DNA of 64,000 nt, taken from Mucilaginibacter lacusdianchii. GTDB taxonomy: Bacteria; Bacteroidota; Bacteroidia; Sphingobacteriales; Sphingobacteriaceae. The position numbers and the translations under genes are program-made. How positions within the stretch are numbered: position 1 is the stretch's first letter; each line of letters starts with the position of its first letter. Where the stretch lies: assembly GCF_009770985.1 (NCBI RefSeq), contig NZ_WSRW01000004.1:93063-157062 (forward strand), written 5' to 3'. The notes under the pieces are model-generated. The model was not told the origin of the DNA, did not search any database, and saw only the letters and a program-made list of their open reading frames with translations. Below are positions 1 to 54,345 of the stretch, in pieces.

Positions 1-200
1 TGGAGATAGAAAAAGAAGGGCAAAGGCCCGCTGTTGCGCCCGGGCCGGCGATGGCCTTGCGGGCGGTGAGGTGATCGCAACAGCTAGGCTTTTTTGGTTC
101 TTTTGTAGCTATGACAAAAGAACTAGCCCCTGCGGCAATGAGCAGACGATGTAAGTTTAGTAGCATCAAAGAAAGTTAAGCTCCAAGCACAAACCCAAGC
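1..200 (+). repeat. Dispersed structured repeat, copy 1 (5' part outside window)
   Basis: This is the 3' half of an element that recurs at 15645-16110, 48677-49085 and 53942-54345 in the same orientation. Visible stems: GCTGTTGCG (30-38) with CGCAACAGC (76-84); GTTCTTTTGT (97-106) with ACAAAAGAAC (114-123), loop AGCTATG; CTGC (130-133) with GCAG (142-145). Resemblance to the other copies fades after about position 200. It lies just past the 3' end of the minus-strand monooxygenase gene. No protein-coding gene is evident here. Confidence 0.85.
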
Positions 201-13840: not shown

Positions 13841-15595
13841 ATGAAGTTACTTATATCTTACCTATCACGGCATCGTGGGCTGGTTATACTGGCGCTGGCG
13901 CTGGCCGCTTTCAATATTGGCTTTTCCCTGCTCGATCCATATATTACTGGTCACATCGTTGATAATTTTATAGAAAAGCGTAGTGCCTTACCTTACAACG
14001 ATTATTTGTGGGGTGTGCTTAGCTGGGTTGGTTTGGCCATTGGCGCAGCAATGGTATCACGTATTGCCAAAAACTTTCAGGATTACTTTACCAGTATTAT
14101 TGTACAAAAGGTAGGCGCCAAGATGTATGCTGATGGTTTGAAGCATTCGCTGGAACTTCCTTATCAAGTTTTTGAAGATCAGCGCAGCGGTGAAACTCTG
14201 GGCATTTTGCAGAAGGTACGACTGGATTCCGAAAAATTTATCACATCCTTTATTAGCATCTTGTTTGTCAGCTTAATTGGATTGGTATTCGTAACCGTGT
14301 ATTCTATTAGCGTAAGTTATAAGGTAACGTTGGTTTACTTTGCTGCTATTCCTATCATTGCATTTGTAAGCACAGCCCTTAGTAAACGCATTAAAACCAT
14401 TCAGCGCAAAATTATTGGCGAAACCACTGCATTGGCCGGTTCTACTACTGAGTCGTTGCGTAATATCGAGCTGGTAAAAAGTTTGGGCCTTGTTAATCAG
14501 GAAATAGACCGCCTGAATAAAACTACTTATAAGATATTAGACTTAGAACTGCGTAAAGTAAAGTTTGTACGCAGTATGAGCTTTGTACAAGGTACTACCG
14601 TTAACTTAGTGCGCAGTACCATGGTCGTGGTGTTACTATTGCTGATTTTCAAACAAACCATCTCTCCGGGACAGTATTTCAGCTTTTTGTTTTATTCCTT
14701 TTTCCTATTCAATCCTTTACAAGAATTAGGCAACGTGATTTTGTCGTGGCGCGAGGCGGAAGTATCATTAGGGAATTTCCAGAGCATACTAAATACACCG
14801 GTAGACAAAAAGCCTGAAAAACCGGTACTGCTCGAAAAAGTAAAGCAGCTAAATTTTGACAACGTTAGTTTTAAACATTTAACCGCTAACCGCAACGCGC
14901 TTAACAATATCAGTTTTGAAGTGAAAACTGGCGAAACCATTGCTTTTGTGGGGCCGTCTGGTTCAGGTAAAACTACATTGGTTAAGTTACTGGTAGGCCT
15001 GTATCAACCCATGCAAGGCGATGTGTTGTACAACGGGGTGATTAGTAATGAAATTGACTTGGATAAGCTACGTGAGCGTATTGGCTTTGTAACACAAGAT
15101 ACGCAACTCTTTTCGGGTACCATTCGTGAAAACCTGCAATTTGTTCGCCCCAATGCAACCGATGAAGAGTGTATGCACGTGTTACACCGTGCCGCTTGCC
15201 AAAGCCTGTTAGCCCGTGCCGATAAGGGTTTAGATTCGGTGATAGGCGAGGGTGGCGTAAAAGTATCCGGTGGCGAAAAACAGCGTTTATCTATTGCCCG
15301 GGCTTTGCTGCGCAGGCCGGATATTCTGGTATTCGATGAAGCTACATCAGCGCTGGACTCGTTAACGGAAGAAGAAATCACAGAAACGATTAAAGATGTG
15401 TCAGAACATCAAAATCATATCACCATACTTATTGCTCACCGCCTGAGTACCATAATGCATGCCGATCGTATTTACGTGCTTGAAAAAGGGCATATAGTAG
15501 AGTCGGGCGGGCATACCGAGCTGCTGTCGCAAAAAGGCTTGTATTATGCCATGTGGCGTCAGCAAATAGGGGAGAAGCATACGGCGGAGGTATAA
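13841..15595 (+). CDS. ABC exporter, fused permease/ATPase (MsbA/LmrA type)
   Basis: 584 residues: a six-helix type-1 exporter membrane domain (about 1-320) followed by an ATPase domain. Walker A is GPSGSGKTT, the Q-loop is FVTQDTQLFSGTIRENL, the signature is VSGGEKQRLSIARALL and Walker B with D-loop is ILVFDEATSALD, with the switch His in LIAHRLS. It would work as a homodimer exporting lipid, peptide or drug; the substrate cannot be told. The ATG at 13841 is preferred because nine upstream in-frame codons cover the frr terminator and the -7 element. The gene ends just before repeat copy 2. Confidence 0.9.
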   Translation: MKLLISYLSRHRGLVILALALAAFNIGFSLLDPYITGHIVDNFIEKRSALPYNDYLWGVLSWVGLAIGAAMVSRIAKNFQDYFTSIIVQKVGAKMYADGLKHSLELPYQVFEDQRSGETLGILQKVRLDSEKFITSFISILFVSLIGLVFVTVYSISVSYKVTLVYFAAIPIIAFVSTALSKRIKTIQRKIIGETTALAGSTTESLRNIELVKSLGLVNQEIDRLNKTTYKILDLELRKVKFVRSMSFVQGTTVNLVRSTMVVVLLLLIFKQTISPGQYFSFLFYSFFLFNPLQELGNVILSWREAEVSLGNFQSILNTPVDKKPEKPVLLEKVKQLNFDNVSFKHLTANRNALNNISFEVKTGETIAFVGPSGSGKTTLVKLLVGLYQPMQGDVLYNGVISNEIDLDKLRERIGFVTQDTQLFSGTIRENLQFVRPNATDEECMHVLHRAACQSLLARADKGLDSVIGEGGVKVSGGEKQRLSIARALLRRPDILVFDEATSALDSLTEEEITETIKDVSEHQNHITILIAHRLSTIMHADRIYVLEKGHIVESGGHTELLSQKGLYYAMWRQQIGEKHTAEV

Positions 15596-15644: not shown

Positions 15645-16110
15645 TTGTTAGGATAAGGATGTACTTTAACCACAACCTGTGGATGTTACTTTTTCTTTTG
15701 CCGGAAAAGAAAAAGGAACCAAAAAGAAAGCTCTCGGCCGCACCTTCTTTCTACTCAAGACAGTGCTTGTACTTAAGTCAGTAGCTACCGAAAGAAGCTG
15801 AATGCCGATTCTTTTTTTAGACTCGTTCTGCCAGTGCTTTACGTTGAATGAGAGTAGAAAAAGGAAGAGAAGAAGCGCAAAGGCCCGCTGTTGCGCCCGG
15901 GCCAGCGACGGCCTCGCGGGTGGACAGGTGATCGCAACAGCTAGGTTTTTATTCACTTTGTTGTTTTGCTTTTTAGTGGTGTTCATGAGATCGCTGCGCT
16001 AAGTTTTGGTTCTTTTGTAGCTATGACAAAAGAACTAGCCCCTGCGGCAATGAGCAGACTGCAATAAGTAAACGACTACTACAAGAAGTTCAAACTCCAC
16101 AAGCCCAAAC
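15645..16110 (+). repeat. Dispersed structured repeat, copy 2 (with internal insertion)
   Basis: The 583-bp gap between the ABC exporter and the convergent MFS gene is mostly this element. It starts TTGTTAGGAT as in copies 3 and 4. Stems seen: CCACA/TGTGG (15670-15682); CTTTTTCTTTT/AAAAGAAAAAG with GCCGG loop (within 15685-15719); CTTCTTTC (15744-15751)/GAAAGAAG (15790-15797); GCTGTTGCG (15887-15895)/CGCAACAGC (15933-15941); GTTCTTTTGT (16009-16018)/ACAAAAGAAC (16026-16035); CTGC/GCAG (16042-16057). Unlike the other copies about 54 extra bases lie between the fourth and fifth stems. Short reading frames on both strands here are by-products of the repeat. Confidence 0.9.
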
Positions 16111-48626: not shown

Positions 48627-48654
48627 TTAGTTAGTTAGTTAGTTAGTTAGTTAG
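48627..48654. repeat. Tetranucleotide microsatellite (TTAG)7
   Basis: Seven uninterrupted TTAG units, 60-87 bp upstream of the start of the ATP-grasp-like gene and 23 bp before repeat copy 3. The tract lies outside coding sequence. Confidence 0.95.
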
Positions 48655-48676
48655 TGCTTTGACTTTTGGTTGTGCC

Positions 48677-49085
48677 TTGTTAGGATGGGGGTGTTCTTAT
48701 ACCACAGCCTGTGGAAGTTACTTTTTCTTTTACCGGAAAAGAAAAAGTAACCAAAAAGAAACCTCTCGGCCGCACCTTCTTTCTACTCAATGCAGTACTT
48801 GTACTTAGTACAGTAGTTACCGAAAGAAGCTGAATGCCGATTCTTTTGTTGGCTTGTTCTGGCAGTGCTTTACGTTAAATAAAAAGAAGAGGAAAAGCAA
48901 AAAGGAAGCGCAGAGGCCCGCTATCGCGCCCGGGCCAGCGTTGGGTTGGTGGGCAGACAGGGGATCGCGAGAGCTAGGCCTTTTGCTTACTTTGTGGCTA
49001 TGACAAAGTAAGTAGCCTCCGCGGCAATGAGCGGACTGCAAGAAGTGAATACCACCACAGGAAGTTAAGTTACAGGCACAAACTA
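48677..49085 (+). repeat. Dispersed structured repeat, copy 3 (most diverged)
   Basis: Stems: CCACA/TGTGG (48702-48714); a perfect 15-bp stem GTTACTTTTTCTTTT (48717-48731)/AAAAGAAAAAGTAAC (48737-48751), loop ACCGG; CTTCTTTC (48776-48783)/GAAAGAAG (48822-48829); GCTATCGCG/CGCGAGAGC with one mismatch (within 48920-48973); CTTACTTTGT (48986-48995)/ACAAAGTAAG (49003-49012), loop GGCTATG; TCCGC (49018-49022)/GCGGA (49031-49035). Several arms differ from copies 1 and 2 but remain complementary. It fills most of the 568-bp gap between two minus-strand genes; nothing else but the TTAG tract is seen there. Confidence 0.92.
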
Positions 49086-53941: not shown

Positions 53942-54345
53942 TTGTTAGGATAGGAATGTTCTTGTACCACAACCTGTGGAAGTCACTTTTCTTTTTCCCG
54001 CTAAAAAGAAAAGTAACCAAAAGAAAAAGGCTCTCGGCCGCACCTTCTTTCTACTTAGGTCAGTACTTATACTTAAGTCAGTAGCTACCGAAAGAAGCTG
54101 AATGCCGATTCTTTTTAGAGGGCTTGTTCTATCAATTCTTTAATTCGATAAATTCCGGTTCAGACAAAGAAACAAAAAGCGCAAAGGCCCGCTGTTGCGC
54201 CCGGGCCAGCGATGGCCTTGTGAGCGGAGAGGTGATCGCAACAGCTAGGCCTTTTTGTTTCTTTTGTGGCTATGACAAAAGAAATAGCCTCCGCGGCAAT
54301 GAGCGGACAAAGTAGGTAAAGAACTACTGTCTTAAGTTAAAAACG
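53942..54345 (+). repeat. Dispersed structured repeat, copy 4
   Basis: Stems: CCACA/TGTGG (53967-53979); GTCACTTTTCTTTTT (53982-53996)/AAAAAGAAAAGTAAC (54003-54017) with one mismatch; CTTCTTTC (54044-54051)/GAAAGAAG (54090-54097); GCTGTTGCG (54191-54199)/CGCAACAGC (54237-54245); TTTCTTTTGT (54258-54267)/ACAAAAGAAA (54275-54284), loop GGCTATG; TCCGC (54290-54294)/GCGGA (54303-54307). It lies in the 719-bp gap between the DUF3127 gene and the third M28 peptidase; the remaining 54346-54503 is A/T-rich without an obvious gene. Confidence 0.92.

Follow-up and report, generated by a model that had tools for sequence, protein, structure and literature searches.

The repeated element at positions 48677-49085 of the window (the whole 64,000-nt stretch of DNA that was analysed) is best read as a DNA-level, hairpin- and triplex-ended, non-coding repeat and not as an RNA gene, a reading that we place slightly above even odds (probability of about 0.52). 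We propose that it belongs to a dispersed non-coding DNA repeat family of REPIN/MITE-like architecture, whose full form would have two inverted ends flanking a variable middle. Once single-stranded, each end would fold into a small outer hairpin and a pyrimidine/purine hairpin with the neighbouring strand laid along the purine arm; the product would be an intrastrand triplex of class II PIT type, rich in A/T, to which loop-to-strand pairings would be added. Such a fold may matter at the DNA level, during replication or copying. The copies would be kept alike by recombination or gene conversion and would spread rarely, either through copying linked to replication or with the help of a protein that acts in trans.

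The coordinates are listed in Table 1, with copy 3, a full-length element, as the reference for this analysis. A variable A-rich linker lies between P1/P2 and the GC hairpin, whose loop finds its partner strand (P3) 37 nt downstream. The left unit has the arm AAAAGAAAAA, a hairpin loop of 5 nt, the loop GTAACC and the third strand AAAAAGAAA. Two right-end pairings, that of the GC-hairpin loop with a downstream strand and that of the A/T-hairpin loop with an upstream strand, were absent from an earlier, sequence-only reading of this DNA. In the host genome the two ends have become distinct modules, one left and one right; as candidate terminal inverted repeats, GTTGTGCCCTGTTAG on the left can be set by eye against CTAACAGCACAAAC on the right, and these vary between copies. 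A (TTAG)n run (48628-48655) lies immediately to the left of copy 3, and a (TTAG)n expansion also flanks two further copies (L005 and L017).

Table 1. Positions in the window of the parts of copy 3 and of all copies present in the window
Feature	Position	Strand	Remarks
Small outer hairpin CCACA-GCC-TGTGG (copy 3)	48702..48714	+	Just outside the main left hairpin; seen in the sequence
Main left A/T hairpin GTTACTTTTTCTTTT / AAAAGAAAAAGTAAC	48717..48751	+	Compensated changes known
Purine third strand AAAAAGAAA	48753..48761	+	Mirrors the 3' arm of the hairpin (A5 G A3)
Stem P1 TCGGC / GCCGA	48766-48770 / 48836-48840 (span 48766..48840)	+	Encloses P2
Stem P2 CTTCTTTC / GAAAGAAG	48776-48783 / 48822-48829	+	Inside P1
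GC hairpin GGCCCG / CGGGCC	48915-48920 / 48931-48936 (span 48915..48936)	+	
P3, long-range pairing of the GC-hairpin loop CTATCGCG with CGCGAGAG	48921-48928 / 48966-48973 (span 48921..48973)	+	
Right A/T stem S2 CTTACTTTGT / ACAAAGTAAG	48986..49012	+	Loop GGCTATG
Terminal hairpin TCCGC / GCGGA	49018..49035	+	Loop GGCAATGA
Copy 1	1..200	+	3' part, equal to the right module; remainder upstream of the window, beyond an assembly N
Copy 2	15645..16110	+	Full element plus a hairpin-like extra insert of ~45 nt before the last A/T stem
Copy 3	48677..49085	+	Full-length element, reference
Copy 4	53942..54345	+	Full element; left hairpin runs A4/A5, third strand follows (AAAAGAAAAAG)

The sequence-only reading had counted four copies of the element. 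Copies 2, 3 and 4 stand, together with the named stems and the matched changes reported for them; the number does not, as a DNA-level search of the host genome (Mucilaginibacter, 5.06 Mb, 99.98% complete) gave ~40 copies with 76-86% identity to copy 3, and a search of the same genome with a covariance model of the right core gave 46 right-hand cores. Pairwise identity between the copies has a median of 87% and a maximum of 93%, so no copy is very recent; neither near-identical recent copies nor a candidate mobilising gene was found, and both absences speak against the proposed reading. The copies were said to lie always on the same strand, which is true of this contig (9/9 copies), but both strands are used in the rest of the genome. 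Members of the family were observed in 48 of 91 Sphingobacteriaceae genomes, representing 14 of the 25 genera sampled. Copy 1 does end at the window edge, as had been noted, but the edge is not the whole reason: an assembly N lies inside the copy, just before its A/T hairpin and window position 1, with the same ~93 bases on either side. Because these bases are duplicated around the N, we regard copy 1 as one element split at an unmerged contig overlap, and the family may account for this assembly break at one of its hairpins. The insert of copy 2 (~15950-16003, ATTCAC...TTCATGAGATCGCT) sits between P3 and the last A/T stem; it is also found in copies L052, L054, L055 and L200, and similar inserts occupy the same place in other species (L077 and L105). 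Within the genus, a second dispersed repeat, GTCATTGCGAGGNACGAAGCAATC, is often located just outside these elements (L228:331-360, L036 and L107), and one relative (L227:600-1800) repeats the right module four times in tandem on one strand, at intervals of ~340 bp.

Paired change goes beyond chance. Among 35 right modules of the host genome, 96.9% of the pair cells were paired, compared to 93.8% in shuffled controls and 36-43% when one side was slid; cells changed on both sides numbered 22 against 5.2 expected. The 32 left modules of the same genome had 98.8% of cells paired and nine double changes (0.8 expected). P2 occurs in three compensated classes, CTTCTTTC/GAAAGAAG, AGATTTTT/AAAAATCT and CTTTTCC/GGAAAAG. 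The covariation within the host genome derives mostly from a few haplotype classes (two in the case of P3 and roughly four in that of the final A/T stem); the number of independent events is therefore smaller than that of the copies, and the wide evidence for covariation comes from other species. P3 is wholly replaced there and still complementary (CTGTTGCG/CGCAACAG, GACAAAAAG/CTTTTTGTC, GACGGAAAA/TTTTCCGTC and GAAAGAGGGG/CCCCTCTTTC). For S2, 34 distinct arm pairs were collected genus-wide, of which 90% of positions are Watson-Crick pairs compared to 64% in permuted pairs (permutation maximum 73%). S1, in which the S2 loop pairs with the adjacent upstream strand, can be recognised clearly in many relatives (CTTGAT/ATCAAG, CTTGAC/GTCAAG, CTTGAA/TTCAAG) but is imperfect in the host genome (CTAGGCC vs. 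GGCTATG); its permutation test, with only 12 distinct types, is weak (73/5000).

In the sister species Mucilaginibacter sp. Bleaf8 the element was observed at three orthologous sites in the same orientation, with helices that differ in compensated fashion; the left module is missing at one of them. Copies within one genome have their helix classes in common, whereas an orthologous site holds another class in the other genome, as expected from gene conversion among copies. Recombination or gene conversion would move both arms at once. At matching sites in more distant species the element was absent (0/15 beside one neighbour gene, which we take to be DUF3127-like, and 0/4 beside the other gene tested), and with these empty sites in 15 and 4 distant genomes a fixed gene partner is not supported. 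The earlier claim that base pairing is selected or copied is well supported; helices vary in matched pairs from copy to copy, from one species to another and, at a shared site, in a sister species.

The purine stretch 3' of the left hairpin repeats the hairpin arm in mirror order. We compared the lengths of the runs in arm and third strand across phyla, in a set that includes Paraburkholderia, Burkholderia, Pasteurella, Aeromonas and Ilyobacter elements found via plasmid records. With loose matches, arm and third strand have equal A runs next to the turn in 62 of the 64 cases, whereas permuted sets averaged 21.8 and not one in 20,000 reached 62, and the second run is correlated between the two (rho 0.71); with the strict pattern, the third strand mirrors the arm in 56/56. 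In the Pasteurella element the runs are 4,3 at one end but 3,4 at the opposite end; the third strands differ accordingly, each matching the end to which it belongs. Run-length agreement at right ends is loose and was left out of the evidence. That the third strand stays in register with its hairpin in 62/64 cases in three phyla supports, on evolutionary grounds, a three-strand relation. The left unit has the layout of a class II potential intrastrand triplex (PIT) in an A/T-rich version (PMC4666352): a pyrimidine arm, a loop, the complementary purine arm, a second loop and, in mirror order, a purine third strand; copy 3 lies within the class II size range (6-15 triplets in the stem, 1-6 nt in each loop). 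Judging from this layout, the ends probably form three-stranded DNA; in vivo, however, no stable triplex was observed with the G/C-rich PIT motif (PMC4666352). No named family had been thought to fit the element. This is true of Rfam 15, in which permissive and strict searches found no family above threshold, and apart from the PIT work (PMC4666352) nothing was found in the literature on these sequences; the left hairpin unit, on the other hand, fits the class II PIT motif.

The three-part end design recurs in unrelated bacteria. Four relatives (L094, L107, L228 and L229) were observed to carry two inverted ends facing outward around a variable middle, and inverted outward pairs of ends were also observed in Paraburkholderia and Pasteurella. 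The Paraburkholderia elements are near-palindromes of 520-620 bp whose two ends both carry this hairpin and its third strand. On a P. caribensis megaplasmid, near-palindromes with nested complementary blocks are located at L217:7600-8550 and 14200-15180, and tandem copies of a unit of ~30-60 bp lie outside the right end. The exact left hairpin was found only in the host genome, and not in viral contigs, plasmids or 295 other Bacteroidota genomes, which indicates that exact patterns are too strict. A related Proteobacteria hairpin was found in 22 plasmid records and not in phages or E. coli. Pattern matches in Clostridia (L106) and Legionella (L119) lack the hairpin and were discarded as chance. 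We tentatively suggest, with considerable doubt, that the A/T-rich triplex-hairpin end could be the structure by which one widespread class of elements, mobile or linked to replication, is recognised (Bacteroidota, Pseudomonadota, Fusobacteriota). It would act as folded single-stranded DNA with a putative partner protein, and selection would maintain the register between the hairpin, the third strand and the loop pairings.

The location of the copies, always just past the 3' end of a gene according to the sequence-only reading, was observed for 36 of 40 copies genome-wide. Convergent genes flank 21 of the 40, as against 16% of local gene pairs; 9 (++) and 6 (--) lie between tandem genes and 4 between divergent genes, i.e., there is no orientation preference relative to the neighbours. 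That reading had left a choice between a structured RNA and a mobile element replicated through hairpins. The DNA/hairpin option fits better because G-U pairs are rare, the ends in relatives are inverted copies, no gene orientation is preferred and a purine third strand is a feature of DNA; such an element may be mobile. A structured RNA, with its own promoter or in a 3' UTR and a pseudoknotted fold selected in the + strand transcript, is the best of the alternatives and still unlikely. It would explain the two covarying loop-to-strand pairings, and the + strand folds slightly better as RNA than the - strand (28/38 copies, by a mean of 6.3 kcal/mol). The one-sided changes in the helices are U-G (6 cells in the right module, 2 in the left), and the small bias of G-U (G-T) over A-C among such changes keeps the RNA option alive. 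Very few G-U pairs are seen in P3 and S2, however (S2: 813 Watson-Crick cells, 4 G-U, 1 A-C and 1 other). Since both ends in relatives are inverted copies, neither strand is favoured. RNA does not adopt purine triplexes (PMC4666352), although a pyrimidine third strand would be possible in RNA on the complementary strand. The lack of an Rfam match and of an orientation preference also argues against an RNA.

Of nearly the same low likelihood, a shade below the RNA, is the explanation that selection favours no function of the element: template switching, through quasi-palindrome correction, and gene conversion among the copies would together keep the arms complementary, and the copies would be tolerated debris at gene 3' ends. 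The arms are indeed almost perfectly Watson-Crick, the discrete classes per genome that differ between species at the same site look like concerted evolution, and chimeric copies exist (e.g., L022 with a broken P3). Local template switching poorly explains the complementarity of P3, with strands ~40 nt apart around another hairpin, and a mirror-ordered third strand is copied by no polymerase. Since many compensated variants occur naturally, the folding at the DNA level, the copying mechanism and the RNA alternative can all be tested directly.

We consider it improbable that the element is a true REPIN that was once moved by a RAYT (Y1) transposase since lost from the genome. Two inverted hairpin ends around a spacer, and Y1 transposases in 55 of 61 Mucilaginibacter genomes, including proteins resembling subclass 2.6, speak for it; but no match to the Y1 family (PF01797) was found in the host genome or in Bleaf8 (G036), yet both hold many copies, and the ~185-aa Y1 genes examined in other Mucilaginibacter (L166, L168, L171 and L173) are flanked by their own distinct short palindromes, not by these ends, which are far longer than REPs. 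The absence of Y1 from the host genome also rejects an own-genome Y1 transposase as the copying agent, and the element is thus not shown to be a REPIN. Subclass 2.6 Y1 proteins have atypical flanks and were described in Bacteroidetes (PMC6006769), so that a Y1 relative may act in trans.

Compared to known systems, the element resembles MITEs in being short, non-coding and dispersed, with candidate inverted ends; it differs in that no target-site duplication was recognised (none was seen by eye in the flanks, and the ends of the element are not sharp), no parent transposon was found and the outer ends are only loosely inverted here. Like REP/BIME/REPIN sequences, it consists of palindromic repeats in intergenic DNA that form inverted doublets with a spacer between them, fall into subfamilies whose stems use alternative complementary bases, and are predicted to make hairpins as ssDNA (PMC3116915, PMC3733652). 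Inverted palindromes around a spacer are present in L094, L107, L228 and L229, and the ends have diverged in the host genome; the end modules measure ~60-100 bp, whereas a REP unit has ~20-40 bp. Unlike those systems, the element has loop pairings and a third strand, there is no Y1 gene in its genome and none of these ends lies beside the Y1 genes checked. In the end unit itself it resembles the class II PIT/BoxC/TM_ECO elements, which also set on one strand a pyrimidine and a purine arm parted by a short loop, then a second short loop and a mirror purine strand, are intergenic, occur in many copies with no gene-orientation rule, and are reported in inverted pairs (PMC4666352 and work cited therein). 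The PIT motif is G/C-rich (CCCTCNCCC) whereas the present one is A/T-rich and makes up a single end module within an element of 400-600 bp that has additional covarying helices and loop pairings. Bacterial triplex motifs have so far been catalogued by sequence, with little evidence of constraint on the third strand itself; here, the arms and the third strand covary across phyla.
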